Shown here: positions 27,727 through 45,812 of the stretch, piece after piece | Position numbering within the stretch: the stretch's first letter is position 1 | How the letters are laid out: each line of letters opens with the position of its first letter | The notes under the pieces: generated by a model | The model's database searches: none | Told to the model about the DNA's origin: nothing | What the model saw: the letters and a program-made list of their open reading frames with translations, nothing else | NCBI RefSeq assembly: GCF_021029445.1 | Contig: NZ_CP072610.1 | Span: 3,410,001-3,474,000, forward strand | Reading direction: 5' to 3' | Origin: Pseudomonas wenzhouensis | GTDB taxonomy: Bacteria; Pseudomonadota; Gammaproteobacteria; Pseudomonadales; Pseudomonadaceae | DNA: 64,000 bases | Position numbers and translations under genes: made by a program

Positions 27727-27813
27727 GCCGATTGACCCGCGCCAGACGCATCCCTATACTTCGCCGCCATCGTGCCCCGGTGGCGGAATCGGTAGACGCG
27801 GCGGATTCAAAAT
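27727..27813 (+). repeat. attL of element 1: promoter and 5' half of tRNA-Leu
   Basis: 87 bases matching 35791-35877 at a constant offset of 8,064 bases. They are identical except for six mismatches in the promoter spacer. From 27774 to 27813 it is the 5' half of tRNA-Leu(CAA) up to the anticodon loop; the sequence then diverges. No 3' half follows, so this copy cannot make a tRNA. Confidence 0.85.
27732..27760 (+). promoter_or_regulatory. Original tRNA-Leu promoter, now separated from the tRNA
   Basis: TTGACC (27732-27737), 17 bases, then TATACT (27755-27760). The same boxes with the same spacing stand before the intact tRNA-Leu at 35796-35824. Six of the 17 spacer bases differ between the copies. 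Confidence 0.75.
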
Positions 27814-27870
27814 GACTCCAGCCAACTACCAAACCCCTCTAGATCGCACCTTTCAGGCCATCAAGGCCGC

Positions 27871-27889
27871 TGCTACACCGCTGAGTCAC
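27871..27889 (+). repeat. Candidate integrase arm site, left end of element 1
   Basis: TGCTACACCGCTGAGTCAC, repeated in the same orientation with one change at 35651-35669. The CTGMGTCAC core also occurs at 35639-35647 and inverted near 35691-35699. Confidence 0.55.
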
Positions 27890-27939
27890 GGTTAAGACTC
27901 GATCCTGACAGCCTCGTCAATCGGCTTCAAGATTCCCTT

Positions 27940-28434
27940 CTACGCCACTTCCTCAGCCACTCTCCTGACTCGTTTTTTGTACGTCCTCCCGGTCGCCCCA
28001 AGCCTCGCCAGAACATCTGCCCGCTCGTTACCTTGCGTGCCATTGTGGCCCCTTAACCACCTGACAGTGACGTCCTTCTCCAGCAGTAGTTGAGCCAGGC
28101 GTTGCCATAAGTCGAGGTGCTTCGGTGGCTTCTTGTCGGCCTTCTTCCAGCCCTTGGCCTTCCAGCCTTCCAAGCCCCCATTGCAGGCGTTGGCGATGTA
28201 CTCGCTATCGGTGCGCAGGGTGATAGGTGCAGGCTGAGTGCATCGTTCCAGAGCCTCGACCAAGGCCATGAGTTCGGCTCGGCTGTTAGTCTGCTCCTGG
28301 GCCTCGGGGACTGGCCCGGCAATCTCCAGGGTGTCGCCTTGCGGGTTGGTCAGAACAGCGCCCCAGCCAGCTCTGGCGTTGGGCTTTCCGTTGTTGGTGC
28401 ATGCGCCGTCGGTGTAGATCGTGTAGGTGCTCAT
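27940..28434 (-). CDS. rnhA: Ribonuclease HI, element-borne
   Basis: A 164-residue RNase H type I that cleaves RNA in RNA-DNA hybrids. The catalytic set is complete: Asp9 (TDGACTNNGK), Glu54 (SRAELMAL), Asp76 (RTDSEY), His130 and Asp140 (NERADVLA). The basic protrusion helix (GWKAKGWKKADKKPP) is present. The start at 28434 gives MSTYTIYTDG; the frame is open 74 codons upstream without family similarity. It is the leftmost gene of element 1, so it probably serves the element's replication, or it may be a hitch-hiker. The chromosome presumably has its own rnhA elsewhere. Confidence 0.93.
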   Translation of the reverse strand: MSTYTIYTDGACTNNGKPNARAGWGAVLTNPQGDTLEIAGPVPEAQEQTNSRAELMALVEALERCTQPAPITLRTDSEYIANACNGGLEGWKAKGWKKADKKPPKHLDLWQRLAQLLLEKDVTVRWLRGHNGTQGNERADVLARLGATGRTYKKRVRRVAEEVA

Positions 28435-28774
28435 GGGTAAGTGTTCCTTGTCTGAAGTGCAGGCAGACCTCTCCCTCCTGACGTTTCTCAGGTGGAGACC
28501 TCCGGTGATGCCGGTCAGGTAGTCGAGGCCGAAGGCCTTCGGGGGAAGACCAAGCTTTAAGGAGATACCATGTGATGGCTGAGGGTGACGCTGAGAGTTG
28601 CGCCTGGAGATGGCCCAGGTGTTGGTCTTTGCTTGGTTTGCCTTTGATGGGAGCAACTACAGCAACTGCACCAGAGCGAACCCCCGGAGGCCTCTTGGAG
28701 GTACTGGTCTTGGTGGTCTTTTATATTATTGGGGGCTTTCCATACCCTCTGATACAAGCGGCCTGCAGGCAATA
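28435..28774. other. Gene-free interval upstream of rnhA
   Basis: 340 bases with no convincing gene in any frame. It contains a perfect ten-base palindrome GAAGGCCTTC (28531-28540) and an AT-rich stretch near 28718-28732. It should hold the rnhA promoter, but I cannot pick boxes with confidence. Confidence 0.4.
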
Positions 28775-29386
28775 TCAGCCGCCAGTTTTGGCGGTTCTGA
28801 ACACCCATTGCTGCAATGCGTGGCTTCTGGCTTGAAGGTCACCTCTCCAGGCATACCAAGGGTGAAGGCTGATTTTCATTGGCCAGTAACGCCCCTGATG
28901 CTTTCGCTCAATCAGACGGTGTCGCTCCAGATCAGACAAAGCCCGCTCTATGTTTCGCAGCGGGGTATAAAGCGCCTTGGATAACTCGGCCACGGAGCCA
29001 TACCAGATATTGCGAGCCGACAACGCACGCGCAAGATGCTTGAAAAGCCTGACCGCCTTGTCGCTCAGTCCGACATCAAGAAGGTCTAGGATATTGTCGG
29101 CGTCATAAACCAGCCGGTCGGCCCACCAGTCAAATGTCTGGACAGCCTGCCACAGCTCCTCTTCGTTCCTGGCGTCATTTGGCCAAGGCGTATCAAGCCC
29201 AACATAAGGGGCATCCCTCAGGTCACGCTTCGTTAGTGCAGCGGGCTTTTCCAGCATTTGTTCAGTGGGGTTCAGTATTTCGCCTGACGCAACGTCAACA
29301 TAGAAACGCAGGCCAAGCCCGCAGGGGACAACATCCACAGTCTTGGTTTCAACATCGGCGATCGTGACGCTCGGTAGTTGTTCCAT
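28775..29386 (-). CDS. Winged-helix protein, possible plasmid-type replication or regulatory protein
   Basis: A 203-residue protein not assigned to a named family with certainty. Residues about 105-180 read as a winged helix-turn-helix: helices RLFKHLARALS and SVAELSKALYTPLRNIERALSDL, then the wing HRLIERKHQGRYWPMKISLHPWYAWRGD. A wing ending in a P-x-W-x-W-R-G-D-like stretch resembles initiators of small plasmids (RepL type), so a replication role is possible, but this is inference. AAGGGGG lies five bases before the ATG. The previous gene (29396-29680) ends nine bases upstream, suggesting a two-gene operon. Confidence 0.6.
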   Translation of the reverse strand: MEQLPSVTIADVETKTVDVVPCGLGLRFYVDVASGEILNPTEQMLEKPAALTKRDLRDAPYVGLDTPWPNDARNEEELWQAVQTFDWWADRLVYDADNILDLLDVGLSDKAVRLFKHLARALSARNIWYGSVAELSKALYTPLRNIERALSDLERHRLIERKHQGRYWPMKISLHPWYAWRGDLQARSHALQQWVFRTAKTGG

Positions 29387-29395
29387 GCGTCCCCC

Positions 29396-29680
29396 TTAGC
29401 GGCTCAGTTCAGCCGGAGTGAGCGCCTTCCCGCCCATGCGATTGACTGGGCCAAGCTTCAGCCAGTGAGGGGCATCCTTGTCGTCCTGGGCAAGATCCAA
29501 GAGGTCGGCAAGTGATTTGCTCAGGCCAGCAACCAGGGCCAGCTCCAGGGCTTCGCCCAGGCGTGTATCGCGCCCCTTCCGTTTCGCCAAGGCGTTGGCC
29601 AGGGCGACCAACTGGGTGGCATGGTCTCGGAGCATATGAACGTGGAAGCGCACCAGGGGCGCAGGCAGTTGATGCTTCAT
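29396..29680 (-). CDS. Small alpha-helical protein of unknown function
   Basis: 94 residues, predicted all-helical, with Ala/Leu-rich amphipathic stretches (QLVALANALAKRKGRD, LGEALELALVAGLSKSLADLLDL) and a loose C-terminus. I do not recognise it. It is closely followed by the winged-helix gene and preceded by a 263-base interval holding one copy of a 24-bp element-specific repeat. It could be a partner of the winged-helix protein. Confidence 0.5.
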   Translation of the reverse strand: MKHQLPAPLVRFHVHMLRDHATQLVALANALAKRKGRDTRLGEALELALVAGLSKSLADLLDLAQDDKDAPHWLKLGPVNRMGGKALTPAELSR

Positions 29681-29803
29681 CGGGTAGTGTTCCTGTGTGA
29701 TAGGCGAACGCCAGCGCCCCGCTAGGGGTAGCCCTGCAGGGTGTCGGGAGGAGTCGCCGGGGGAGTGCTGAGAGGCAGGAAAGACGCCGCCTGGAGCGGT
29801 TTT

Positions 29804-29827
29804 CTTTTCTGCTATTACTGGGGGTAA
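29804..29827 (-). repeat. 24-bp element-specific repeat, copy 1
   Basis: On the plus strand it reads CTTTTCTGCTA, T, TACTGGGGGTAA. The second copy at 30741-30764 differs at one base. Each copy lies downstream of one minus-strand gene and upstream of the next. Confidence 0.6.
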
Positions 29828-29943
29828 AGGGGCGTCAGCGGCTCGTTCTCGCGGACGGTGACTTCACACCGCCCAAAGAACGCTTCAAGGGTCTTCTGAA
29901 CTTCGTAGAGAGAGCCTCGCAGGGCGTAGTTCAGACTTGAGTA

Positions 29944-30690
29944 TCAAGCCACCTCTATGGCGCTACCGCCGATGATGCGACTCAGCTCGTCGAAGCCCTT
30001 CTGGGTTACAAAGACCTCGGGAATGCTGTCGTAGCTGCCCGCACGCTGCAGCATGCGAACGACTAGCCAACCCTTGTCGACTGCTCTCTTGCTGGGAGTA
30101 TCAGCATCACGACGCGACTTCCACCCGATGTGGCGCAAGACCCTATCGACGGCGATAGCGCTCTGGAAACCAAGCATGTGAGCCACCTGAGTGGAGGTAT
30201 AGAGGTCATTGTTGCTCACGGTGGCGTCGCAACCTTCAGCTTTCGGCAGGAGGACGGTGTTCTCCTGCTTCAGGGCTACACGCTTTTCTTCCAGTTCGGC
30301 TGCTAGGCGCAGAGCGTCAGCGAACGACTGAGACCGATTCATCACTGCAGACTCTTCCGGCTTGGTGATGGTCAGCTCGGCCTTCTTGTTCAGGATGTCG
30401 TGGATAACCATGTCGCAGAACACCGCGAACTTTACGTCCAGCCAGCGGGCGAAGAAGACGGCCAGTTTGGGGTGCCCCCAGGTGCCACCATTACGTCCCT
30501 GGTGCGATTCATAAATGCGTGAAAATCCCACCTTTTCCAGAGCCTCGACGTACTTATTAGTGGAAGGAAGACGAAGGAACTCTTTGACCTCCTTCCCAAA
30601 CTCCTTCGCGGCCTTGGTCATGTTGAAGTAACCATCCTCACGAAACTGGAAGACGTTACCGTTGTAGTCGCGGGTGATGATGTTGCTCAT
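29944..30690 (-). CDS. KilA-N domain DNA-binding protein
   Basis: A 248-residue protein. The KilA-N domain occupies about 1-110: YFNMTKAAKEFGKEVKEFLRLP near the start and GGTWGHPKLAVFFARWLDV later, which are family hallmarks. A middle coiled region (ALRLAAELEEKRVALKQEN) and a C-terminal domain with a second possible DNA-binding helix pair (YTSTQVAHMLGFQSAIAVDRVLRHIGW) follow. KilA-N proteins are phage and plasmid regulators. AGGAGAG lies five bases before the ATG. It is homologous over the KilA-N part to the element 2 protein at 38892-39548. After its TGA the frame stays open for about 41 codons. Confidence 0.85.
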   Translation of the reverse strand: MSNIITRDYNGNVFQFREDGYFNMTKAAKEFGKEVKEFLRLPSTNKYVEALEKVGFSRIYESHQGRNGGTWGHPKLAVFFARWLDVKFAVFCDMVIHDILNKKAELTITKPEESAVMNRSQSFADALRLAAELEEKRVALKQENTVLLPKAEGCDATVSNNDLYTSTQVAHMLGFQSAIAVDRVLRHIGWKSRRDADTPSKRAVDKGWLVVRMLQRAGSYDSIPEVFVTQKGFDELSRIIGGSAIEVA

Positions 30691-30740
30691 GGTGTCTCTC
30701 CTAAAGACTGGTCAATTCGTGGCCTTGGTGGCCTGCAGTG

Positions 30741-30764
30741 CTTTTCTGCTAGTACTGGGGGTAA
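30741..30764 (-). repeat. 24-bp element-specific repeat, copy 2
   Basis: Same as 29804-29827 with one substitution. It lies 51 bases upstream of the KilA-N start, in the promoter position, and could be an operator for an element protein. Confidence 0.6.
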
Positions 30765-30787
30765 TTGGTTGGAGACGGGGGCGAGCC

Positions 30788-30946
30788 TTACTTCTCGCCC
30801 AGCAGTTCCTTGATGTTGTTGGCGATGGATTGGGCCTTGGTGGCCTCGGTCAGCAGCTCGTCCGCTTGTTCTTCCAGCAGCGTGGCCTGCTCGATCTTGC
30901 TGGCGGCTACTGCGCGGTTACGGGCGTTGACGTCTTCCAGGGCCAT
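30788..30946 (-). CDS. Small coiled-coil protein
   Basis: 52 residues from the ATG at 30944-30946 (MALEDVNARNRAVAASKIEQ onward). The sequence is a single helical coiled coil rich in Ala, Glu, Gln and Leu, ending NNIKELLGEK. The frame is open a further 47 codons upstream, but that part has no protein-like character. There is no clear ribosome-binding site. It lies between the recombinase and the KilA-N gene. Unknown function; low certainty that it is expressed. Confidence 0.4.
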   Translation of the reverse strand: MALEDVNARNRAVAASKIEQATLLEEQADELLTEATKAQSIANNIKELLGEK

Positions 30947-31157
30947 GAGGGTTTTCTGGAAGGACTTGAGGAGAGGAGAAAACAACAGGGGGTTGGAGAT
31001 GCAGGCAGTGGTTGTGCAACGGACGGGGAATCCGTGAAGCCCTAAATTGCTGGTGGTTATGACACGGACTAGGTATCCGTTTATCAACCACCAGATACGC
31101 CAAGCCCCCGTTGGGTGACCTCTAGGGGCTTCGTCTTTGCGGTACTGGTGATAGGCC

Positions 31158-31790
31158 TCAGGCTGTGGCGCTGGCCTTGTCTCTGGCTCTTAGCACAGTG
31201 CTGGTGCTGACCCTCAAGAGCTTGGCCGTCTCTCTGATACCTGTTCCCTTGTTCAACAGGGCCAGGATGCTGGCGTGCTTATCCTTGTCGATGCCTCGGC
31301 CTTTGTAAGCCCCCAGAGCTTTAGCCTTGGTGATGCCTTCGTTCTGGCGTCTGCGCCTGTCTTCGTAGTCCTTCCGGGCAACCGCTGCGAGCATGTCCAG
31401 CAGCATGTCATTGATTGCGCCCAGCATCCGAGAGGTGAAGGCATCGGCTGCGGTATTGCTGGCGCTGGCCATGAACTGGTGAGAGGTCGGCAGATCCAGG
31501 GCAACGACCCGCACCTCCTTCGCCTTGATGGTTGCCCGGAGTTGCTGCCAGTCGCCCTCAGTGAGGCGGCTCAGACGGTCGACCTGCTCAACCAAGAGAA
31601 CATCCCCCGGCTTCGCGTCGGCCAGCAGACGGAACAGCTCAGGGCGCTGTAGAGAGGCGCCGCTTTCGTTCTCGGTGTAGTAGCTAGCGATGTGCTGACC
31701 ATGGCTTTGGGCGAAGGCGTCCAGGGCAGACCGCGCTCGGCTAGCGTCTTGCTCAGTAGTGGATGCCCGGAGATACGCACGGACAAACAT
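31158..31790 (-). CDS. Serine recombinase, resolvase/invertase family
   Basis: A 210-residue site-specific recombinase. The nucleophile is Ser10 (RAYLRASTTEQ), and the conserved arginines lie in VEQVDRLSRLTEGDW. The long E helix (FTSRMLGAINDMLLDMLAAVARKDYEDRRRRQNEGI) and a C-terminal helix-turn-helix (GTGIRETAKLLRVSTSTVLRARDK) complete the family plan. AGGAG lies about ten bases before the ATG and abuts a 13-bp repeat arm that belongs to a res-like cluster at 31803-31906. It probably resolves multimers of the excised element or inverts DNA; which of these cannot be told. Confidence 0.9.
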   Translation of the reverse strand: MFVRAYLRASTTEQDASRARSALDAFAQSHGQHIASYYTENESGASLQRPELFRLLADAKPGDVLLVEQVDRLSRLTEGDWQQLRATIKAKEVRVVALDLPTSHQFMASASNTAADAFTSRMLGAINDMLLDMLAAVARKDYEDRRRRQNEGITKAKALGAYKGRGIDKDKHASILALLNKGTGIRETAKLLRVSTSTVLRARDKASATA

Positions 31791-31802
31791 TGGTGACAGC
31801 TC

Positions 31803-31906
31803 CTTGTTGTCGTTTAGGTGTTGTCACTATGCATGTTGCCGTATGAGTGGTCAAGGCCATACCAAACGACAACAAGTCAGGCGGCTGTTGCTGTTGTCGC
31901 TGAGGT
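31803..31906. promoter_or_regulatory. res-like recombination/operator cluster before the serine recombinase
   Basis: A perfect 13-bp inverted pair, CTTGTTGTCGTTT (31803-31815) and AAACGACAACAAG (31864-31876). A third related copy, TGTTGTCGCTGAGGT (31892-31906), matches 31805-31819 at 13 of 15 bases. Several related sites just upstream of a resolvase gene are the usual design of a res site. Confidence 0.6.
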
Positions 31907-32033
31907 ATACCCAAAGAGAACGCCCTGGAAGGTAGCGAGAGAGTTGGTTGGCTTATGAGCGCCAGCAATACGACTGGCAGAGCTCCCCCTACGCCCTTAT
32001 CCTTCCTCCCCCTACCTGAGACGAGCTCCTGAC

Positions 32034-33032
32034 ATGATGTCGAAACCCTTCACTAGCTTACTCCTTGCACTCAGCATGCTTGCTTGTGTCAGCAGTGCCA
32101 ACGCCTCAGAGCCAGCTCTGGCTCAGGCGCGGATGGTTATGCAGTCAGTGATGAACGCCGAAAGTGGTTTTATAAATAAGTCTGTTCACGACGAATTCTG
32201 GCGCTTGTTGAAGACGGATGCTGAAAATGAACCGGAGGCACTTCATCAGATCGTGGCAGCACTGCACCAAGCAAGAGTCATGGCGAGCGGCTATCCGTTG
32301 GAAACCTGGAAGAGCATTCAACAAAGCTACGAGCAGCGGAAAGTTGTTAGGACACCTGGCTTTGTCAAAATGTCAGCCAATCTCCGGGGGCTCCAGCCGC
32401 AAATTGCTGCGTCAGTGGATAACGCTGAGCGCTTCTTGGCAGCAGCGGCCAATCGCACCCCAATATCAGCCAATGGCCAGACTGTTTATATCGACGAAGA
32501 AAGGATCGGCACAGTGCTCAACGGGATTGAAGCCTCGCAAAGCCGCCTCGACAGACTCTTCAATCCGCAATGGTCAGAAGAGATGATAGAGCAGGCAATT
32601 CCAGCTGCTCGAGTCACGATTCTCACGCCCGACTTGTTCGCCATCTCACGGGATACGATTGCCGGCATAGCGGTGCCGACCGTTACGGCGCAACGCAACC
32701 TTGGGCCGAGCTCCACGGAGCAGATTATGTTTATTCAAGTCCCAGGAGCGGACAAGACCGATCTTGATAGGCGCGCACTTTCAGCCTGCAGGGGCGCCTT
32801 CGGTGTGGTCGGCCTTACTTGTAAGGCAACAGCAGTGCAATGGCGCGGCTTGCCGGGGATTACTGCAGCTGACTCAACAAGCGTGGATGGCATCAAAATC
32901 GGGCTTGCTGTGCAGGTTATCAAGCTTGAGTCAGAGCAGGCCTTGCAAACATTCTCAGTCGTCGCACCAGGCACCGCAACAGACGCCTCGTTGGCGCTTG
33001 ACGCCTTCATGCGTCGGGTAAAGTATGACTAG
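32034..33032 (+). CDS. Exported protein of unknown function, element cargo
   Basis: A 332-residue protein with a clear signal peptide (SLLLALSMLACVSSANAS, cleavage near ANA-SEP), so it should reach the periplasm or beyond. The mature part is mixed helical and strand sequence with two cysteines (SACRGAFGVVGLTCKA) that could form a disulphide. I recognise no family or catalytic motif. Two consecutive ATG codons (32034, 32037) begin the frame; no strong ribosome-binding site is visible. Codon use is less GC-rich than in the chromosome, which suggests recent transfer. No neighbour hints at its job. Confidence 0.7.
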   Translation: MMSKPFTSLLLALSMLACVSSANASEPALAQARMVMQSVMNAESGFINKSVHDEFWRLLKTDAENEPEALHQIVAALHQARVMASGYPLETWKSIQQSYEQRKVVRTPGFVKMSANLRGLQPQIAASVDNAERFLAAAANRTPISANGQTVYIDEERIGTVLNGIEASQSRLDRLFNPQWSEEMIEQAIPAARVTILTPDLFAISRDTIAGIAVPTVTAQRNLGPSSTEQIMFIQVPGADKTDLDRRALSACRGAFGVVGLTCKATAVQWRGLPGITAADSTSVDGIKIGLAVQVIKLESEQALQTFSVVAPGTATDASLALDAFMRRVKYD

Positions 33033-33133
33033 CCAGCTCCAACTTGGTCGTCACAGCAGTCGCAGGCTCTAGCAACCCAAGTGCCGACCAGGCTCACAAG
33101 TGGACATTAAGAGCTACTCACGAACAGCCCCCG

Positions 33134-33964
33134 TCAAGGATTAGTCTTTCCTGAGAGCTGAGGCCAATCGAATATCTCTTCAATACCTGACGTCTCGTAA
33201 ATGAAGCCTCCATGAATGGCTGAAAAGTCAGGAGTATCCATATCTAGCCAGGCATCATGCGCATCCAATCTGATGACGTTCTCCCCCGGAGACAGCTTCT
33301 CTTGCACCTGATATTTGCTCCCACTGAAGAAGGATGCTGGGTCTTCAGCGACGGCGTCCTTGAGCCTACTTATGTCAGTCTTCAGGTGAGAATGCATTGC
33401 CAGCACTGCAGAGCTAGCGTGGGTCTTGAAAGCTTCAACAGTGGCCCTTTCACTTGGCCGGGAAATGGACTTATTCGACATCCTCACGTTCAAGGGAGTG
33501 AACTGTCCATTTAGCTCTGTCCCCTGCAGGAGCAACCGAGGAGGAATGGCGTCAAGGTCATCATGTGCTATGAGAGTGTTTCGGATGCTCAGAAGATGCT
33601 GATGGATCGCTGCATCAAAGCCCTCTGCGCGGGTAACCCTGCTCTCTTTATATCGAACAGGCTTCCCGTCAATGTTGTGATTAAGAAAAGGCTTCGTATA
33701 GCGAATGACGGCCCAGTGAAATATCGACGCCGGGATAATCGCTACAGGGTCATCGTGACGCTCTAGCAAAAGATGAAAGCCATTAGCAGCACCCAGCATG
33801 TTGTGGAGCGCTTTCATCCCGATCTTGCATTGAAGCATTAATCCTTCGACCTTCATGTCGCCACTCTTTGAGCCGTAGAGACGCTCGATGGTACCCCCGA
33901 TACGGGGGGAAGAGGGCCAATTCCTTACTACAAGAGGTAGCTCAGATTTTTCTACCAAAAACAT
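33134..33964 (-). CDS. HEPN-motif protein of unknown function
   Basis: A 276-residue protein. The middle part has helical sequence with FHWAVIRYTKPFL and then FDAAIHQHLLSIRNTLIAHDD, which contains RN-x4-H (Arg128, Asn129, His134). That motif, placed after a long helix, is the mark of HEPN domains, many of which are ribonucleases in toxin or phage-defence systems. No nucleotidyltransferase antitoxin (MNT type) gene accompanies it, and not all RNx4H proteins are active. The C-terminal 100 residues are unassigned. The divergent gene at 34028 shares its upstream region. Codon use suggests foreign origin. Confidence 0.65.
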   Translation of the reverse strand: MFLVEKSELPLVVRNWPSSPRIGGTIERLYGSKSGDMKVEGLMLQCKIGMKALHNMLGAANGFHLLLERHDDPVAIIPASIFHWAVIRYTKPFLNHNIDGKPVRYKESRVTRAEGFDAAIHQHLLSIRNTLIAHDDLDAIPPRLLLQGTELNGQFTPLNVRMSNKSISRPSERATVEAFKTHASSAVLAMHSHLKTDISRLKDAVAEDPASFFSGSKYQVQEKLSPGENVIRLDAHDAWLDMDTPDFSAIHGGFIYETSGIEEIFDWPQLSGKTNP

Positions 33965-34027
33965 TCTGGCAATCTATGCCTCCCGACATTTAGCCGGTAA
34001 CCAATTGATTCGCATGGAGACATTTCC

Positions 34028-34417
34028 TTGAAGCTCAGGATTTCCTTGATAGCCGTATTGCTGGCTAGCGCAGGATGCACGCAGTACTCCTCCAACCTGC
34101 AGGTAGGCAATGAGCAGATTTATACAAGCCTCAAAGACCAACGCGAAGCACTCCGAACGGTACGTCAATATGAGGCGCTACCGGCTGGTGCCGAGGTACT
34201 AGGCCCAGTTGAAGCAGGCCGCTGCCATCGCAGCTGGGTTGAAAAAGAGCCCGAGGAAAGCAGTCTTTTGATAGACCTCAAAGTTGCTGCATATGCCAAG
34301 GGCGCTGACGGAATCACAGATGTGAAATTCTCGAAAGACTCAGGCTTAAACCGCAACTGTTGGTACATCTTAGGGGCAACTGCTGTGATGTTTGCGCTTC
34401 CCTCGAAGGCGGAGTAA
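34028..34417 (+). CDS. Small lipoprotein, RcsF-like in pattern
   Basis: A 129-residue lipoprotein: signal SLIAVLLASAGC with lipobox ASAGC (Cys17). The rest has a GAEVLGPVEAGRCHRSW segment, a helix with DLKVAAYAKGADGITDVKF and a late cysteine (LNRNCWYI). Gly-Glu/Pro-Val followed by spaced cysteines and an 'AxxxGAD' turn is the pattern of the RcsF envelope-stress lipoprotein fold. The resemblance is by eye only. It is divergent from the HEPN-motif gene, 63 bases away. The start is supported by the signal peptide. Confidence 0.65.
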   Translation: MKLRISLIAVLLASAGCTQYSSNLQVGNEQIYTSLKDQREALRTVRQYEALPAGAEVLGPVEAGRCHRSWVEKEPEESSLLIDLKVAAYAKGADGITDVKFSKDSGLNRNCWYILGATAVMFALPSKAE

Positions 34418-34441
34418 CTGAACACGCCAGGATGTACATAC

Positions 34442-37714: not shown

Positions 37715-37939
37715 ATGCCTGCAATTACTAGCAGTGAAAACCTACCTCCCCGCCGCTTTATCAAGCTACCCAAGGTGAAGGATTACACCAGCCTTTCCAC
37801 TTCCGAGATTTACCGCCGCATTGCCGCCGGCACCTTTCCCGCCCAAGTGAACCTTGGCCCCAAGTCTGTTGCCTGGATCGAAGCAGAGGTATTGGCCTGG
37901 TGTGATTCGCTGGCCTCACAGCGCGAGGTGGCAGCATGA
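37715..37939 (+). CDS. alpA: AlpA-family regulator/excisionase
   Basis: A 74-residue winged-helix protein. The sequence FIKLPKVKDYTSLSTSEIYRRIAAGTFPAQVNLGPKSVAWIEAEV is the AlpA pattern (MerR-like helix-turn-helix), found in phage P4 and cryptic prophage CP4-57 as activator of excision. AGAGGA lies seven bases before this ATG; a GTG six codons upstream is less likely. The next gene overlaps its end by four bases. Confidence 0.92.
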   Translation: MPAITSSENLPPRRFIKLPKVKDYTSLSTSEIYRRIAAGTFPAQVNLGPKSVAWIEAEVLAWCDSLASQREVAA

Positions 37940-38589: not shown

Positions 38590-38592
38590 ACG

Positions 38593-38895
38593 ATGAGCAC
38601 AAAAAAGGCCGACCAACAGGCCAGCCCAAAGAAAACGCACGTAAATGATACCAGCGGCCATGCCCAGCGCGCCCGACTGTTAGCGCGCTTGCACCTCGGC
38701 CCGGTGGACACCATCACCGCCCGCGCCGAACTGAACATCATGATGCCCGCAGCCCGCGCGAAGGAACTACGCGAGCAGGGGCATCCTATCAAGACACACC
38801 GCATCACCATGACTGATGAGCAAGGCCGTACCCATCACGGCATAGCGCTGTACTACATCGGCGCACTTCTGGACGACTGCGAGGTGAGCCAATGA
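38593..38895 (+). CDS. Helix-turn-helix protein (HTH_39-like)
   Basis: A 100-residue protein. The central part, RARLLARLHLGPVDTITARAELNIMMPAARAKELREQGHPI, fits the small phage helix-turn-helix family in which a winged domain ends in HxxxxHGIALY. The basic, polar N-terminus (MSTKKADQQASPKKT) is disordered. It starts three bases after the previous gene and overlaps the next by four, so it belongs to the early operon. Confidence 0.75.
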   Translation: MSTKKADQQASPKKTHVNDTSGHAQRARLLARLHLGPVDTITARAELNIMMPAARAKELREQGHPIKTHRITMTDEQGRTHHGIALYYIGALLDDCEVSQ

Positions 38896-39548
38896 ATGCG
38901 CGCATTATTCCCTTCGACTACGACGGCCAGGCTGTGCGCTTCAATGCTGACGGTTGGATCAATGCAACGGAAGCGGCGGCGCGGTTCGGTAAAGAACCTA
39001 CGCAGTGGCTCAGGCTGCCCGACGCGACCCGCTACCTGGAGGCTCTGCAACGTACATATGGGGAAATCACATATGTAAAAACGAGTCGCGCCCGAAGTGA
39101 TCGCGGTGGCGGAACCTGGCTGCACCCGAAGCTGGCGGTGAAGTTTGCCCGCTGGCTATCCGTGGACTTTGAAATCTGGTGTGACACGCAGGTGGACGCC
39201 CTGTTGCGCGGCGAGCCGAAGCCTTGGGCCAGCGCCAGGCGTGAGGCTGCAATCGGCTACCGCGCAATGTGCGACGCCTTGGCGCTCAACTGTGAAGCGC
39301 AGGGCAAGACGCCCCAGCGGCACCACTTCATCAACGAAGCACGATTGATTAACGAGGTCATCACCGGGGCTTTCACTGGCCGCAACCGTGACCAGTTGAA
39401 CGCCGCCGAGCTTGAGCTTGTGACCCTGGCCGAGCTGCGCGACACGGTGTTAATCGGCCAAGGCATGGCCTACGCCGAACGAAAGTCCAACCTGCTGCGC
39501 TATGTGCATGAGTTGCAGGGCAAGCACCTACGGAGGCTGGCCGCATGA
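38892..39548 (+). CDS. KilA-N domain protein, paralogue 2
   Basis: A 218-residue KilA-N protein. The domain covers about 1-105: FNADGWINATEAAARFGKEP and GGTWLHPKLAVKFARWLSVDF. It is closely similar there to the element 1 protein at 29944-30690. The C-terminal region (HHFINEARLINEVITGAF) resembles the phage antirepressor-associated C-terminal domain. Its ATGA start overlaps the previous stop. It lies directly before the C4-like RNA region, so a role in control of lysogeny or copy number is possible. Confidence 0.82.
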   Translation: MNARIIPFDYDGQAVRFNADGWINATEAAARFGKEPTQWLRLPDATRYLEALQRTYGEITYVKTSRARSDRGGGTWLHPKLAVKFARWLSVDFEIWCDTQVDALLRGEPKPWASARREAAIGYRAMCDALALNCEAQGKTPQRHHFINEARLINEVITGAFTGRNRDQLNAAELELVTLAELRDTVLIGQGMAYAERKSNLLRYVHELQGKHLRRLAA

Positions 39549-39620
39549 ATACCGCACGCACCTTCCCGACCATTGCCAAGCTGGCGCATCGGCGTTATCG
39601 TGCGACCGTCGCTGCAAATT

Positions 39621-39694
39621 CAGTGACCGGGTTTGGCGACCCGAACTATCCAAGGCGCACAAGCGCCGCACCGCAGACAGCTGGCGCTTTTTTT
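39621..39694 (+). ncRNA. C4/CI-like antisense RNA with terminator
   Basis: Three stems in a row: CGGGT/ACCCG (39628-39643), GGCGC/GCGCC (39654-39667), and AAGCGCC/GGCGCTT (39661-39689) followed by TTTTTTT. Two alternative hairpins, the last a terminator, upstream of an Ash-like coding remnant and the primase operon, are the layout of the P4 CI and P1 C4 antisense RNAs. The loop GTTTGGCGAC recurs unchanged at 39798-39807 and is partly complementary to TTCGCCAA at 39764-39771. A covariance search was not possible. Confidence 0.55.
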
Positions 39695-39780
39695 GTGCCC
39701 GCAGTCCGTTATGGCGGCTGTGCGTGGGAGACCGAAAGGTCTGCCGGTTCCCTTGGATGCCGGTTCGCCAACCCGCGTAC

Positions 39781-39821
39781 AGCTGCCACCCATAATCGTT
39801 TGGCGACGGTTCGTGGCAGCT
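39781..39821 (+). promoter_or_regulatory. Leader hairpin before the small early genes
   Basis: A nine-pair perfect stem (AGCTGCCAC / GTGGCAGCT) holds in its loop GTTTGGCGAC, a repeat of the C4-like loop. It ends 24 bases before the next ATG. Possible target or mimic of the antisense RNA. Confidence 0.45.
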
Positions 39822-39844
39822 CCACAATCCAAGGAGCACCACCC

Positions 39845-40006
39845 ATGCAAACCACCCGCAATCCGTCCGCATCACACGCAGCCGCCTGGAAGGCCCGCGC
39901 CCTGGCCGCCCTGCGCGCCGACTGTTCCCTGTCCGTCCGCCTGGCTCGCTACAACGCAGCCATGGCCAAGGCCCGCACCCTGGAAGCTGTAGGAGGTGCG
40001 CAATGA
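39845..40006 (+). CDS. Small protein of unknown function
   Basis: 53 residues (MQTTRNPSASHAAAWKARAL onward), helical and basic. The frame is open 100 codons upstream to 39545, but that part covers the structured RNA and repeats, so I use the ATG at 39845, which has AAGGAG ten bases upstream. It overlaps the next start by four bases (ATGA). Not recognised. Confidence 0.5.
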   Translation: MQTTRNPSASHAAAWKARALAALRADCSLSVRLARYNAAMAKARTLEAVGGAQ

Positions 40007-40269
40007 GCGTTCAAATCGAAACACTGATTAGCCGACTCCAAGCCGAGCGAGCCCATGCCTCGCAAGTCTGGACGATCCTTAACGAACTGCGCATTCAAGG
40101 CCATCTCCCAGAGTGGGCCAAAGCGCTGGACGCCGGCACCATGCGCCAGGCCGATGATATGGGGCGCGCTCAGAAAGCAGTAAACGCCGCACTGCTGGAG
40201 CTGGTGCCCGGCTTGGCGCAGGTAACGGGCACCGCCCGCCCCACCGAAGCCCAAGGGGGTGCGCAATGA
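40003..40269 (+). CDS. Small helical protein of unknown function
   Basis: 88 residues, predicted helical, beginning MSVQIETLISRLQAERAHAS, with a coiled-coil-like first half. It overlaps its neighbours on both sides by four bases and so is translated as part of a chain of coupled genes leading to the primase. No family recognised. Confidence 0.6.
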   Translation: MSVQIETLISRLQAERAHASQVWTILNELRIQGHLPEWAKALDAGTMRQADDMGRAQKAVNAALLELVPGLAQVTGTARPTEAQGGAQ

Positions 40270-40586
40270 GCCGTCACGCTTTGTCACGCAGCGTCACCCG
40301 TGGTCACGTCGTCACCGTCTGCCAACCCAGCGATGGACGCCGCCGCGAACTGCCACCGCTGACCATCGGCGGGCTGGCGCTTGAGCTGGCCGGCATGATC
40401 CGCGACGCACTGCCCGCCGCCCTGGTCTGCATCGTGCGCGTTGATCTGCGTCCGACCGAGCGCGAGCAGGCCGAGCAGCAAACACACGCCATCAAGCGCC
40501 AGGTGATCGAGGCGCGAGAAGCCGAGCAGCCCGGCCACGCTTTCCTGGCCGCCACCGGCTTCTGGCCAACCGCCCAGCAGGAGTAA
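40266..40586 (+). CDS. Small protein of unknown function
   Basis: 106 residues. A short beta-like start (HVVTVCQPSDGRRRELPPLTIGG) is followed by strongly helical, Gln/Glu/Arg-rich sequence to the end. It overlaps the previous gene by four bases. Not recognised; its position before the primase suggests a replication accessory. Confidence 0.6.
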   Translation: MSRHALSRSVTRGHVVTVCQPSDGRRRELPPLTIGGLALELAGMIRDALPAALVCIVRVDLRPTEREQAEQQTHAIKRQVIEAREAEQPGHAFLAATGFWPTAQQE

Positions 40587-40591
40587 CCACC

Positions 40592-40732
40592 ATGCATACA
40601 AAAAACGGCGCCCATGCGCCGATGGGTTCGGCTTGCCTGAAAAAAGCCCGCGCCCTGTTGCTGGCGCTGCAACCGGCTGGCGCCGACCTGGTGCTACTGA
40701 CCGGACTGGAGGTGCTGCTATGGACGGTGTAA
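40592..40732 (+). CDS. Very small ORF overlapping the primase start
   Basis: 46 residues (MHTKNGAHAPMGSACLKKAR onward), with a Leu/Ala-rich second half that could be a short membrane or amphipathic helix. It begins five bases after the previous stop (GGAGTAACC upstream) and runs 13 bases into the primase gene in another frame. Termination there would couple translation of the primase. Uncertain, but the spacing is that of a real gene. Confidence 0.45.
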   Translation: MHTKNGAHAPMGSACLKKARALLLALQPAGADLVLLTGLEVLLWTV

Positions 40733-41589
40733 TCGCATTCCGTGATGCCATGCAAAGCACGTTCGGACTGCTTGATTGGCTGCCCATTGCCGACGGCAGC
40801 ATTCAACGCTTCCACGTTCCGGACGACAAGGCCGGCACCCTTAACGGCTGGTATGTGCTGTACTTGGATGGCATCGTCTCCGGTGCGTTCGGCAGTTGGA
40901 AGGCCGGCAGCGCACACACCTGGTGTAGCCGTGAGCCAGTGGACGCCAGAGAGGCCGAGCAGGTGCGCCAGCGCATCGAGCAGGCACGCCGCCAGCGCCA
41001 AGTCGAGCAGCACCAGCGCCAGCAGGCCGCCGCTGAATATGCCAACCGCCTGTGGCGCGACGCCCGTCGCGCCGATCCTGCACACCCGTATCTGATCCGT
41101 AAAGGGCTGCGCACCCAGGGCCTACGCCAGCGCGGGGACGCCCTGCTGGTGCCGTTGGTGCGAAATGGCGTGTTGGCCAACCTTCAACGCATCTACCTGG
41201 ACGGCAGTAAGCGCTTCCTGAGTGGCGGGATAGTCATCGGGTGCTATTCGCCACTGGGCGTTATTACACCGGGTGCGCCGCTATACGTCTGCGAGGGCTG
41301 GGCTACCGGCGCGACGATCCACGCCGACACCGGGGCCGCTGTGGCCTGTGCAATGAATGCCGGCAACCTCAAACCGACAGCGCTGGCGCTGCGGGCGAAG
41401 CACCCGCACGCCTCGATCATCATCGCGGGTGACGACGACCGCCAGACCGAGGGCAACCCGGGGCGTACCGCGGCCAATGCAGCCGCCGTGGCAGTGGGCG
41501 GGCTGGTGGTCTTCCCTCTGTGGCCAGCCGATGCGCCAAACAACCTGACCGACTTCAACGACCTCGCCAATTGGAGGGCAGCCCAATGA
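40720..41589 (+). CDS. Toprim-domain primase
   Basis: A 289-residue protein. The N-terminal half resembles the DUF3987/P4 primase front part. A long Arg/Gln helix follows (about 75-105, QRIEQARRQRQVEQHQRQQAA), then the linker region AHPYLIRKGLR and a Toprim fold with the catalytic Glu in LYVCEGWATGATIH and the acidic triad in IIIAGDDDRQ. It should make primers for replication of element 2. I use the ATG at 40720; the frame is open upstream to 40633. It overlaps the helicase gene by four bases. Confidence 0.88.
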   Translation: MDGVIAFRDAMQSTFGLLDWLPIADGSIQRFHVPDDKAGTLNGWYVLYLDGIVSGAFGSWKAGSAHTWCSREPVDAREAEQVRQRIEQARRQRQVEQHQRQQAAAEYANRLWRDARRADPAHPYLIRKGLRTQGLRQRGDALLVPLVRNGVLANLQRIYLDGSKRFLSGGIVIGCYSPLGVITPGAPLYVCEGWATGATIHADTGAAVACAMNAGNLKPTALALRAKHPHASIIIAGDDDRQTEGNPGRTAANAAAVAVGGLVVFPLWPADAPNNLTDFNDLANWRAAQ

Positions 41590-43376
41590 GCGCCGCCGAA
41601 CCGACCTTATCCCTGGTGCCTTCGCCCACTTCGCCAACCATCACGCCCGAGCGGCCATGTTGGGGCGTGTATGAACACTGGGTAACAAATGAGGTGGGCC
41701 GCAAGCTACGCCCAGGCGTTTACTGGCACGGCTTCAAGCGCGCCGCGGTGGGCGACGACGATAGCGAAGAAACCGCCCGGCCTATCACTGACGACTGGCT
41801 GGCCACGCCCGTGATCGTGACCGCGCGCACCACCAATAGCGACGACGGCAGCGAGGGCCGGTTACTGCGCCTGCTGACCAACAGCGGTGCCAAGGAGTGG
41901 ATCATTCCAATGGAGGTGTTTGGCGGCAGTGGTGAAGACGCCCGGCGTGCACTGTTCGGCATGGGGGCCATCATCGCCCCACGCAAGCGCGGTTTGTTTA
42001 TGGAGTACCTACTGGAGCAGCGCCCCGCACAAACCATTATCACCACGGCGCGGCCAGGCTGGCACGCCTCGGGCGCGTTCGTGCTACCCCAGCGCACCAT
42101 AGGTAGCGACACCGTGCGTTATCAGGCCGGCGCACGCAGCCTCAACCTGTACAGCACCAGCGGCACGCTTGAGCAATGGCAAACCGAGGTGGCCGCCAAG
42201 TGCGCGGGCAATCCGGTACTGACCTTGGCCATTGGCTGCGCACTGGCCGGGCCGCTGCTGAGCCTGGTCGGGGTGGTCGGCGGCGGCGTACACCTAGTGG
42301 GCGATAGCTCCAGCGGTAAGTCCCTGGCGCAGCTGGTGGGCTCATCGGTGTGGGGTGATCCCGGTGTGTTTGCTGCCAGCTGGGATATGAGCAAGGGCGG
42401 GCTTGAGATTGAAGCGGCCAGCCGTAATGACACCATCCTGCCGCTGGACGAAATCAAACGTGCTGACCCCAAGCAGGTGCAGGCCATGGCCTACTCCCTC
42501 GCCAACGGCCAGGGCAAAGGCACCATGACCCGCGAGCGCGAGGGCCGGCCTAAGCTGACGTGGCGGCTGCTGGCGCTGTCCAGTGGTGAGCGTTCGCTGT
42601 CTGAGCACGCTGCTATATCCGGCAACGCCGCCCATGCTGGTGCTGAGCTGCGCATGGTGGACGTGAACGCCGGCACTCGCACACACCGCGCCTTTGACCA
42701 ACTGCACGGCCTGGAGGGTGCCGACTTTCACCGCCTGCTGACCGTGGCCGTCGCTCACCAGCACGGCCACTTAGGCCCGGCCTTTGTTGAGCGACTGCTA
42801 GCTGCTGACGATCTGCCCGGCCTGCTGCAAGACTTCGCCCAGGTGCGCGGTCAGTTCGTGGAAGACAACGCCCAAGCCGGGCGCGTGGCGGATCGCTTCG
42901 CCGTGATTGCCCTGGCTGGGGAAATGGCGATTGCATACGGCCTGCTGCCATGGCCCCAGGGTAGCGCCCTGGCTGATTGCCAGTTGCTGTATGGCGAGTG
43001 GCTGAGCCGAGTCGGCAGCGGCAATGCCGAGGATCGCCAGATACTGGCCGGCATTCTCGACTTTATCGACAGGCACGGCAGTAGCCGATTCTCTGACGTG
43101 GAAGAGCCGACACCAGACGCCAAGGTTTTTAATCGCGCCGGCTGGTGGGAATTGATTGGCACCAAGCGGCTGTATCTGTTCAACAGACCGGCGCTAGTGG
43201 AAGCGGCGCACGGGTATGGCTTGAGCCGGGTGGTCAAAGCGCTTGAGGTCGCTGGAGCAATCGCCGGGCGCGACACCGACCGCAAAACCAAGAACTACCG
43301 ACTACCCGGGGGCGGTCAATCGCGGCTGTATGTGATAGACCCGACGGCGATAGAAACCGAGGGTGGCGGGGTATGA
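41586..43376 (+). CDS. DUF927-domain replicative helicase-like ATPase
   Basis: A 596-residue protein. DUF927 occupies roughly 60-350. The ATPase core has a Walker A loop at about 239-246 (GDSSSGKS) and a Walker B in ILPLDEIKRAD. Conserved residues follow in TWRLLALSSGERSLSEHA. Proteins of this kind replace the helicase half of the P4 alpha protein in many islands. Translationally coupled to the primase (ATGA) and followed by the iteron cluster, it is the likely origin-melting or helicase component. Confidence 0.88.
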   Translation: MSAAEPTLSLVPSPTSPTITPERPCWGVYEHWVTNEVGRKLRPGVYWHGFKRAAVGDDDSEETARPITDDWLATPVIVTARTTNSDDGSEGRLLRLLTNSGAKEWIIPMEVFGGSGEDARRALFGMGAIIAPRKRGLFMEYLLEQRPAQTIITTARPGWHASGAFVLPQRTIGSDTVRYQAGARSLNLYSTSGTLEQWQTEVAAKCAGNPVLTLAIGCALAGPLLSLVGVVGGGVHLVGDSSSGKSLAQLVGSSVWGDPGVFAASWDMSKGGLEIEAASRNDTILPLDEIKRADPKQVQAMAYSLANGQGKGTMTREREGRPKLTWRLLALSSGERSLSEHAAISGNAAHAGAELRMVDVNAGTRTHRAFDQLHGLEGADFHRLLTVAVAHQHGHLGPAFVERLLAADDLPGLLQDFAQVRGQFVEDNAQAGRVADRFAVIALAGEMAIAYGLLPWPQGSALADCQLLYGEWLSRVGSGNAEDRQILAGILDFIDRHGSSRFSDVEEPTPDAKVFNRAGWWELIGTKRLYLFNRPALVEAAHGYGLSRVVKALEVAGAIAGRDTDRKTKNYRLPGGGQSRLYVIDPTAIETEGGGV

Positions 43377-43738
43377 AGGCACACAAAGCAGCCCCGACCC
43401 AGCAAACACAATTACACAGGAACCTAAAACCACTGGCAACAGTGGCAACACCGGCAACGGCCTTGCGGGGCGGGGCTTTCAGCCGTTGCCGGTTAATAAA
43501 AGAAGTGGCAACAGGTGGCAACACAAACTCGATTCTGAATATAAGAGCCTGCCACTACTGCGCACTTTGGTTATCACTGTTGCCGGTAAAAAAGCACTGG
43601 CAACAAAAACGAGGGTTTGGCAACGCCTGGAAGGCCCGTTCTAGAGCGGTTGTTGCCACTGTTGCCACTGTTGCCGGTGTTTTTGAAACCAGACGCACAT
43701 GTGTATGTGTGTTTTCACGGTGCGAGGCTACGCGATGA
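43373..43738 (+). CDS. Doubtful ORF lying over the iteron cluster
   Basis: 121 codons are open from an ATG overlapping the helicase stop. However, the product is mainly the translation of repeats (VATVATPATA, VVATVATVAG) with many cysteines and arginines, and another frame over the same DNA is also open. I think the DNA is an origin rather than a gene. It is listed because it is coupled to the upstream stop. Confidence 0.2.
   Translation: MKAHKAAPTQQTQLHRNLKPLATVATPATALRGGAFSRCRLIKEVATGGNTNSILNIRACHYCALWLSLLPVKKHWQQKRGFGNAWKARSRAVVATVATVAGVFETRRTCVCVFSRCEATR
43434..43675. repeat. TGGCAAC iteron cluster, candidate replication origin of element 2
   Basis: About twelve copies of a 7-8 base unit in 242 bases. 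TGGCAAC or CGGCAAC in the plus direction start at 43434, 43443, 43452, 43506, 43516, 43598 and 43618. The reverse GTTGCC is at about 43484, 43578, 43652, 43661 and 43670, the last three exactly nine bases apart. The AT-richer gap at 43530-43550 could be the melting region. It sits right after the helicase gene, as iterons do in P4-type replicons. Confidence 0.7.
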
Positions 43739-44154
43739 GCCTGCTTTCTGGACTGTTTACCGAACTGGAGAAAGTGCCCGCGCCACGTTTTGTAGTGAGT
43801 GAAAGCGTGGCACGCGGCATGGCCAAGACCAGCAGCCAGCAATCCCACCCACAGACTGTGGCGCACCTGGAGCAGCACCAGCAACCGAGAACCGAGCGCG
43901 CGCCAGCGCTTAGAAACCAACACGGCGTGCCAGGATCAACACTCACAACACGCCGGAGTGAGACTGAGCCGCACGACGACGAACCGCAGCACTTCATTCA
44001 AACCGCCGTCACGGCCTCACCTGAATGGCTGGCTACGCGTGACGCCTTCTATCACCACCTGATGCCGTGCCGTGCGTGCCATGCGCCTGTGGGGCGGTAC
44101 TGCCCTGCTGGTGCTGAGTTGCGCCAGCGGTATGACCTCACGCCCATGGTGTAG
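43735..44154 (+). CDS. Phage-type zinc-finger protein
   Basis: A 139-residue protein. Its N-terminus is SLLSGLFTELEKVPAPRFVV, a polar disordered middle follows, and a C-terminal zinc-binding cluster includes MPCRACHAPVGRYCPAGAEL (four possible Cys/His ligands, CxxCHAP..RYC). This cysteine cluster recurs in small proteins of Pseudomonas islands. I start at the ATG of 43735; the frame is open 12 codons earlier. Function unknown. Confidence 0.65.
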   Translation: MSLLSGLFTELEKVPAPRFVVSESVARGMAKTSSQQSHPQTVAHLEQHQQPRTERAPALRNQHGVPGSTLTTRRSETEPHDDEPQHFIQTAVTASPEWLATRDAFYHHLMPCRACHAPVGRYCPAGAELRQRYDLTPMV

Positions 44155-44383
44155 CGACGGGAAAACCGAAGTGGCCGCACTGAATTGGAAACGCTGTTAA
44201 CACCTAAGGAAACACCCCTTACGCGCGGGGACTGTTAACTGGTACGAGGTAAGTACGAGGGCATACGCGAGGCAAGCGGGTATTACCGTGCGGGCATCAC
44301 ACGTTTCCAAACGAGAGGTTTCCACCATAGTTTCCAGCAAATCGCCCGCTTCTCGCAGCTCTACGCGGCATTGCGCTTAGCGC
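44155..44383. other. Repeat-bearing interval between convergent genes
   Basis: No gene seen. GTTTCCA occurs at 44303, 44318 and 44330 and its inverse (T)GGAAAC at 44186 and 44208. CTGTTAAC occurs at 44194 and 44232. Possible binding sites of an element protein. Confidence 0.4.
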
Positions 44384-44998
44384 TTAGCGCTCCGGCGTAA
44401 CCTCTTCCACCAGAAAGCCTTCAAGGTCATAACCTTTTTCTGTCAGCCGCATATTGAGGCGCAGGTCATCACAGAAGATTGTCAGCTGTCCGCCGCAGCC
44501 TGGATGCTCGAGGCCGATAGGTTCAGGCACTGGCTCTGGATCGTAGTACCTGGCCTCATGCGGTGGCAGCTGTAGGCAATCATCAGACCCGCAGCTCAGG
44601 CAGCGCCCCCGGCTGACTCTTGAGGACAACGCTTCGCGCGCCAACTGATATTCAGCGAGCGCCTCCGCTGCTGATTCGACTTCGCCCTCCAATATCATCT
44701 GCCTGGTGCTTTTGTTAGCCGAGAACTGCCACCAACGCTTTCGGGGTGAGTCAATGGCAAGCACTTCGCTAAGTTCGGCCCGATAGGCCTCCAGCTTTCG
44801 TTGGCGTTCCAGCTCGCCAGCAGCATCAGGTAGGACTTCAATCACTCCAAGGTCAGCACATGCATGGCACCAGCCAATGGCGACACGCATGCGCACCTTG
44901 GCCTCTCCATGCAGGTAATACCTGTAGCCCCAGGTGCCGGCGTCCCAGCGGCTAAGATCGCACGCGGTACATCCGTAGGTAACGACTGGCATCGACAT
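44384..44998 (-). CDS. Zinc-ribbon-like protein of unknown function, element 2 cargo
   Basis: A 204-residue protein on the opposite strand to the rest of the element. It has paired cysteines resembling two zinc ribbons: CTAC near residue 10 with CHAC near 45, and CLSCGSDDC (about 133-141) with HPGCGG (about 165). A coiled segment rich in Glu, Ala and Arg (about 60-130) joins them. I do not recognise the family. Being the only gene outside the replication and control module, it is the sole evident cargo. Confidence 0.65.
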   Translation of the reverse strand: MSMPVVTYGCTACDLSRWDAGTWGYRYYLHGEAKVRMRVAIGWCHACADLGVIEVLPDAAGELERQRKLEAYRAELSEVLAIDSPRKRWWQFSANKSTRQMILEGEVESAAEALAEYQLAREALSSRVSRGRCLSCGSDDCLQLPPHEARYYDPEPVPEPIGLEHPGCGGQLTIFCDDLRLNMRLTEKGYDLEGFLVEEVTPER

Positions 44999-45150
44999 AA
45001 CTGGTCATCCTTGAGCGAGTGAGTACGCGGCTGAGAGGTTGCGGCATTAACAAGGCTATGGTCAACACGACTGGCACCGGCTGGCCGAACGACGGTGGTG
45101 CCTTTTCTTACGCCCCAAAATTCATGTTTTAGGTGGGCACAAAACAAATA

Positions 45151-45175
45151 GTGAGTAGATTTGTGAGTAGATCGA
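45151..45175 (+). repeat. Candidate integrase arm sites, right end of element 2
   Basis: Two GTGAGTAGAT units 12 bases apart, part of a 25-base block identical to 36035-36059. They lie about 50 bases inside attR. Confidence 0.65.
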
Positions 45176-45224
45176 AAACCGCACAGACCTTAAACCCAGC
45201 AAATACGTGGCCTGCAGCGCTAGA

Positions 45225-45246
45225 TTCGAGTCTCCCCCGGGCACCA
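45225..45246 (+). repeat. attR of element 2: copy of the tRNA-Leu 3' end
   Basis: TTCGAGTCTCCCC, then C in place of G, then GGGCACCA: 21 of 22 bases match the end of the tRNA gene. The mismatch would break one acceptor-stem pair if it were used. Confidence 0.8.
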
Positions 45247-45256
45247 CGATACAAGA

Positions 45257-45289
45257 AGCCCGTAAGACATTGGTCTTACGGGCTTTTTC
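45257..45289 (+). terminator. Original tRNA-Leu terminator, now displaced
   Basis: A 12-pair perfect stem (AGCCCGTAAGAC / GTCTTACGGGCT) with a TTTTT tail lies 10 bases after the attR copy of the tRNA end. It presumably terminated tRNA-Leu before element 2 entered. Confidence 0.85.
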
Positions 45290-45798: not shown

Positions 45799-45812
45799 TC
45801 GCCGCCGCCTTG

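Follow-up and report, generated by a model that had tools for sequence, protein, structure and literature searches.

How can both ends of a single tRNA gene be rebuilt by mobile elements, the promoter side by one and the terminator side by another? The question is raised by the tRNA-Leu(CAA) gene of Pseudomonas wenzhouensis, which lies in the middle of a window of 64,000 bases (the whole stretch of DNA that was analysed: NZ_CP072610.1, positions 3,410,001 to 3,474,000). The host genome is a single contig of 4,452,100 bases. An earlier note, made from the letters of the window, read this gene as one assembled from the ends of two genomic islands. Comparison with relatives makes it very likely that two independent and unrelated tRNA-targeting islands, here called island 1 (integrase Int1) and island 2 (integrase Int2), entered the same tRNA gene from opposite sides.

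In the proposed mechanism, Int1, presumably acting alone, would cross over in the anticodon loop, and its attachment site attP would carry a promoter together with the 5′ half of a tRNA. Insertion of island 1 would move the native promoter, with the native 5′ half, to a distance of 8 kb, so that the tRNA gene would come under promoter DNA from the island, at least for the upstream half of the promoter. Int2, which we take to be of the P4 type, would cross over near the 3′ end and supply about CACCA and a new terminator. The reversed polarity of Int1 would come from the palindromic core CGGATT-NNN-AATCCG, read from the strand opposite to that read by a relative in Pseudomonas taeanensis. In both islands, the integrase gene adjoins the end of the tRNA gene that was rebuilt.

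Repeats, empty site and native promoter

Two pairs of repeats mark the ends of the islands. In the 5′ pair (27727-27813 and 35791-35877), 81 of the 87 bases agree and the final 66 are identical, and a promoter scan finds TTGACC-17-TATACT in both copies, at 27732-27760 and 35796-35824, so that the duplication described in the earlier note is borne out. The 3′ pair (35900-35921 and 45225-45246) agrees at 21 of 22 bases without gaps; what had been counted as one mismatch is two separate one-base deletions. Against the native 23-mer, the tRNA gene is without one C and the displaced 3′ copy without one G. Duplication from a second full tRNA-Leu(CAA) was considered as a source of the repeats and rejected: ARAGORN calls one tRNA gene only within the window, and when the whole genome is searched at the DNA level, tRNA-Leu(CAA) turns up once in full and once as the displaced 5′ half, the other hits being two tRNA-Leu(CAG). 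Among the 344 matching genomes (348 genomes of the genus searched, two candidates scored per genome), two copies of the promoter and 5′ half are found in this one only.

If the islands were inserted, relatives should join 27813 to 35878 and 35921 to 45247. A query was made by joining 27400-27813, 35878-35921 and 45247-45800. All 149 genomes of the genus match it somewhere, two of them (G062 and G063) end to end at 82%. Eight loci were fetched, and one alignment spans both joints in six of them (G201, G326, G062, G063, G323 and G247). The predicted empty site is present in G201 as one contiguous alignment, with 96.7% identity over 810 columns and both joints closed; islands 1 and 2 are both missing there. 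At the other two loci, G254 and G269, the alignment is contiguous over the left joint to just beyond the tRNA gene, after which the sequence diverges, and on this evidence they have no island 1 and something else on the 3′ side. Both islands thus show the marks used in the Islander survey. Island 1 has a 5′ fragment upstream at 27727 in the same orientation, Int1 between fragment and gene, and an empty site in G201 and five more of the eight loci; island 2 has a 3′ fragment at 45225, again in the same orientation, Int2 between, and an empty site in G201.

The same relatives tell the two promoter copies apart. Over the 57 bases upstream of the tRNA gene, G201, G254 and G269 match the displaced copy at 56 positions and the working copy at 44. 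At the 13 columns where the two copies of the window differ, these three genomes agree with the displaced copy at 12 and never with the working copy. Because near relatives match the displaced copy so much better, it is identified as the native promoter, and the upstream half of the working promoter now comes from island 1. The displaced native promoter is aimed into island 1, antisense to the RNase H gene of that island (stretch 27732-28656).

The gene order at the site is tgt, queA, a solute-binding-protein gene, tRNA-Leu(CAA) and a cold-shock gene, followed by an RDD gene, an LptF/G gene, a leucine-aminopeptidase-type gene and holC. Judging also by the relatives, this order is of the Pseudomonas type. 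In G201, G254 and G269, the solute-binding-protein gene seems truncated, since some 187 bases of its 5′ end (27418-27604) are missing. The features of the locus are collected in Table 1.

Table 1. Features of the tRNA-Leu(CAA) locus, in window positions, with the evidence for each.
Feature	Position	Strand	Evidence
Displaced native promoter and 5′ half of tRNA-Leu(CAA), left end of island 1	27727..27813	+	Repeat; relatives; promoter scan
Island 1, about 8 kb: RNase H, KilA-N/antirepressor, resolvase, genes of unknown function, integrase	27814..35790		Absent from G201; gene annotation
Arm-type repeat, P′ side of island 1, TGCTACACCGCTGAGTCAC	27871..27889	+	Repeat search; spacing from core
Int1, tyrosine integrase, 402 amino acids	34442..35650	-	Pfam PF00589, PHROG 1
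Arm-type repeat, integrase side of island 1	35651..35669	+	Repeat search; collinear in L087, the G147 scar and P. taeanensis
Working promoter and 5′ half of tRNA-Leu(CAA)	35791..35877	+	Repeat; promoter scan
tRNA-Leu(CAA), 84 nucleotides including CCA	35838..35921	+	tRNA prediction; relatives
Putative crossover core of island 1: palindrome CGGATTCAAAATCCG, anticodon stem-loop	35866..35880		Three genome sites, each in a tRNA gene
CACCA and terminator, probable supply of island 2	35917..35990	+	Relatives; fold
Island 2, about 9.3 kb: integrase, KilA-N regulators, Toprim primase, DUF927 primase/helicase, genes of unknown function	35922..45224		Absent from G201; annotation
Arm-type repeat, integrase end of island 2	36032..36059	+	Repeat search
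Int2, tyrosine integrase with Arm-DNA-bind_3 (PF13356), 402 amino acids	36129..37337	+	Domain search
Arm-type repeat, far end of island 2	45148..45175	+	Repeat search
Displaced 3′ end of tRNA-Leu with one-G deletion ("damage")	45225..45246	+	Same deletion in L087, G081, G257, G160
Native terminator, now apart from the tRNA	45254..45290	+	Directly after the tRNA in G201; fold

Polarity of the Int1-type integrases

Rebuilding of tRNA genes from the 3′ side is usually explained by the need to keep the promoter. The reversed polarity of island 1 may be understood from a close relative of its integrase. In Pseudomonas taeanensis MS-3 (G059, L065, L086), an integrase 68% identical to Int1 sits in tRNA-Cys(GCA). 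Here it is the 3′ side of the tRNA gene, next to the integrase, that has been rebuilt; at the far end of the element, before tRNA-Leu(UAA), stands a 57-base repeat of the 3′ half (56 of 57 bases). The element has the same core, arms and spacing as island 1, whereas it rebuilds the 3′ half of its tRNA and uses the opposite strand of the core. The core common to both is CGGATTNNNAAT, on opposite strands of the palindromic anticodon stem: with the integrase drawn to the left, it reads CGGATTCAAAAT in the window; in P. taeanensis it reads CGGATTTGCAAT, which is the strand antisense to the tRNA. The arm repeats on the integrase side are collinear between the two elements. On the P′ side, the spacing from core to arm is 68 bases in the window and in L087 (Pseudomonas metagenome-assembled genome C17_concoct.bin.54), and 69 in P. 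taeanensis.

Because the anticodon stem-loop is palindromic, one set of core and arms can suit both tRNA-Leu met in sense and tRNA-Cys met in antisense. In the simplest reading, from which we infer both the switch and its direction, the recombinase complex is unchanged and the tRNA is met in the other direction; reading the core from the opposite strand would explain why the polarity of rebuilding is reversed. It is also possible, if rather doubtful, that the core match is coincidental and that the two integrases adopted their targets independently, with no strand switch. A single relative of opposite polarity was found, and all anticodon stems are palindromic to some degree. However, only three of the 65 tRNA matches in the genome of the window carry the 15-base core (the full palindrome CGGATTNNNAATCCG lies at three places, in tRNA-Leu(CAA), tRNA-Cys(GCA) and tRNA-Ser(CGA)), two of these three are the very targets, and the arms and spacing are collinear.

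We keep to the strand switch and lean slightly towards a wider view: one integrase family can switch the tRNA half that it rebuilds, and its islands then carry and move tRNA promoters between Pseudomonas lineages. After such a switch, if it is true, the element must carry a tRNA promoter. Close integrases of opposite polarity on one palindromic core would be a simple route to the rare 5′ islands, and by islands of both kinds the promoter and terminator of a host tRNA gene can be changed with the tRNA itself nearly unchanged.

Two further loci bear on the two-island account. In G147 (L066:7400-7690), just upstream of tRNA-Leu(CAA), a 17-base stretch of the -35 region is present twice, and its two copies enclose arm repeats and a piece resembling the start of Int1 (34 residues, 56%). 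An Int1-type element has probably left a scar here on the 5′ side of the gene, and the scar fits the loss of a promoter-carrying element of which the promoter side stayed in place. L087 shows the same two-sided arrangement: its tRNA-Leu(CAA) has an Int1-type element upstream and an Int2-type element downstream. It differs from the window in that the 5′ element is reduced to about 1.3 kb (its two ends share 91 identical bases) and its Int1 is cut short, in about 1.9 kb of extra DNA, and in its promoter lineage. By eye, the native promoter of L087 equals that of G257. Because this promoter type points to a host lineage other than that of the window, the two-sided arrangement has probably either originated twice or been transferred as one block. 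The extra DNA (L087:3078-4946) follows the displaced 3′ copy, precedes the host flank and holds a second copy of the island-2-type terminator; it is perhaps what remains of a further element.

Host and island parts of the rebuilt gene

Does the rebuilt gene still work? The tRNA of the window has four C within 35907-35921, against five C or an equivalent full-length junction in the copies read from relatives (from 19 of the 29 short loci and 18 of the 20 longer ones, with some genomes in both sets, and from L087), and is 84 instead of 85 nucleotides long. It scores 48.3 bits against 58.7 in G201, and two T-stem pairs are unformed. Tentatively, this could be a decaying pseudogene, in which the base lost at the junction of T stem and acceptor leaves a tRNA that no longer works, and the rarity of the exact short variant (two of 298 genomes of the genus, this one and G079) is in line with that. 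On the other side, the variant in G079, a one-contig assembly with 86% completeness, is in our judgement likely a homopolymer sequencing error and the same could hold for the window, and ARAGORN still calls the tRNA, with a shifted start. If the loss of the base is real, the gene may be weak. The codon UUG is also readable by tRNA-Leu(UAA). Minimum-energy folds of both versions of the tRNA are not cloverleaves and were left unused.

On the 5′ side, the earlier note held that island 1 had rebuilt the upstream half of the gene with its own promoter. This stands for the 5′ side and for the promoter region at least to 35811. The bases from 35812 to 35877, which are identical in both window copies and in the native gene, can be assigned to neither source. 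The working copy to 35811 is of island type, and the stretch after it fits a later gene conversion or an exchange within the stretch. Promoters were compared at 42 of 45 loci (L204, L206 and L207 were left out, probably through a misfit of the search pattern): 27 lean to the working upstream type and 15 to the displaced type, and the best match to the working copy is nine of the 13 differing columns (G257, G153, G122, G223 and G026). The upstream part of the working copy is most likely from another Pseudomonas lineage, with no donor that can be named.

It is unlikely that island 1 was inserted, or later altered, by homologous recombination in the DNA of the promoter and 5′ half, so that the -10 box and the tRNA half stay host and only DNA upstream of 35812 is island-derived. 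Such recombination would leave just what is seen, a working copy that is foreign-like to 35811 and exactly native from 35812; moreover, several of the loci closest in the upstream part (G257, G153, G122 and L087) differ from it in the bases that follow the -10 box, and two of them, G122 and L087, differ in the tRNA half as well. However, later gene conversion between the two copies yields the same picture, island 1 keeps a complete integrase frame, core and arms, and in L087, too, the repeat of 91 identical bases ends exactly at the anticodon loop. An Int1 crossover there remains our preferred account of the 5′ side, where the 66 identical bases of the window permit other crossover positions as well.

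On the 3′ side, the displaced copies are informative. Copies of Int2 with at least 69% identity are found in 26 of 298 genomes of the genus, this one included. At 17 loci scanned from the 25 other genomes (L193-L207, L080 and L192), the neighbouring tRNA is tRNA-Phe(GAA) in 10 and tRNA-Leu(CAA) in five, with none in two. In a separate search for displaced 3′ copies, three of seven loci showed one. All five displaced copies of the tRNA-Leu 3′ end (window, L087, G081, G257 and G160) are without one G of the acceptor strand. Together with PF13356 in Int2, this shared deletion is what is expected of a P4-type junction (J) subsite with damage. Because the mark is common to the displaced copies of several elements, the crossover would lie 3′ of the deletion. 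What island 2 very probably supplies is thus about CACCA, five bases at the end of the gene, together with a terminator (35958-35992). The earlier note had let island 2 enter at the T arm and rebuild the last 22 bases, which is very probably not what happened, with the deletion inside that block; its figure of only 22 bases of host DNA in the gene is likewise too low, about 39 being host on the reading from the damage mark. A crossover in the T loop is quite improbable: the shared block does start there, but the displaced copies in five genomes share the one-G deletion just before the discriminator, which is unexpected if they are host-derived, and damage of this kind is reported in the Islander paper (PMC4383910).

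The earlier note was right about the two terminators, one near the rebuilt tRNA and one after the displaced 3′ copy: they fold at -16.3 and -23.8 kcal/mol (z -6.2 and -7.9). A simple consensus scan listed neither, probably since the T run pairs with the stem. In G257 (L192:8718; L221:5440-5524), about 48 kb separate tRNA-Leu(CAA) from an Int2 relative on one contig, which may be a tandem array at the 3′ end. In the cargo of island 2 (37936-43376), no structural gene was found among the proteins searched; the island is perhaps satellite-like.

Several points weigh against entry of two islands by the mechanism given above. Integration of both is deduced from sequence comparison. More of the compared loci lean to the working upstream type than to the displaced one, and none agrees with the working copy in more than nine columns, hence the missing donor. 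Since 35812-35877 is identical to the native sequence, the exchange point could be anywhere in that stretch. The argument on polarity rests on one relative with a clean opposite insertion. Finally, at 13 of 13 loci of distant Int1 homologues, six from the genus (25-29% identical) and seven from the order, no tRNA was found in the scanned flanks of about 1.5 kb or less.

Known systems and Int1 relatives

In the Islander survey by Hudson, Lau and Williams, 3760 of 3919 islands rebuild the tRNA gene from the 3′ side and 159 leave a 5′ fragment; 125 tandem arrays and 148 islands with damage are also counted, and damage like that of island 2 is described three bases before the discriminator (PMC4383910). 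The earlier note called rebuilding from both sides unusual; rebuilding from the 5′ side is rare, though not unheard of (PMC4383910). Islander islands resemble the present ones in having a tyrosine integrase inside and the rebuilt tRNA and the displaced fragment at the ends; they use anticodon (A) and T/acceptor junction (J) subsites, of which island 1 would use the first. A 5′ and a 3′ island that share one gene are not described in the passages of the survey that were consulted (PMC4383910). The pTN3-like integrases of archaea resemble island 1 in that they attach in the 5′ half of a tRNA-Leu and part the tRNA from its original promoter (PMC5495485, PMC8371274). There, however, the integrase gene is split and its promoter drives the tRNA, whereas here a copy of a tRNA promoter is carried and Int1 is a complete frame of 402 residues outside the repeat, unlike a suicidal integrase of the pTN3/SSV type (PMC5495485, PMC8371274). 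In a review, the pTN3-like situation is said to be seldom met in bacteria, and the match between anticodon stem-loop and recombinase core is already noted (PMC8371274). PFGI-2 and T-PAI likewise use the tRNA-Leu beside tgt/queA of Pseudomonas, and the passages on them do not mention an insertion on the 5′ side (PMC2647930). Among the titles and abstract openings listed from the open-licence literature, none concerns the entry of elements into one tRNA gene at both ends, and none an integrase family in which the polarity has switched. 5′ islands and tandem arrays were already known; the two-sided gene and the polarity switch look like a new variation on them.

Three Int1-type loci are found in the genome collection. 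A query of 401 bases from the integrase-side end of island 1 matches 15 of 398 genomes, with three long matches (401 bases in this genome, 140 in G059 and 96 in G147) and 12 of 26-53 bases. Int1 as a protein has matches in 70 of 298 genomes at an E-value of 0.001 or better, of which only that in G059 is close (68%); the next by E-value is 28% identical. In a protein database search, in which the best 8000 candidates were scored, at least 27 of the 62 proteins listed are homologues of 44% identity or more. Among phage (13) and plasmid (14) records, Int1 relatives are at most 31.9% identical. A first scan of viral contigs found no Int1 relatives, nor did a viral scan with P0021, and a wider profile gave 44 distant viral loci (23-60% over the matched segment). 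The residues R253, K278, H332, R335, H358 and Y369 are all present in Int1 and are assigned as the catalytic set from the family motif. A PADLOC search of 10 cargo proteins found no defence family.

On one contig assigned to Bowmanella (L085:1-4108), where no tRNA was found, part of an Int1-like gene is present together with another Int1 relative that is 56% identical. The DNA after the latter is 95% identical to the resolvase region of the window, and the contig is possibly contamination from Pseudomonas.

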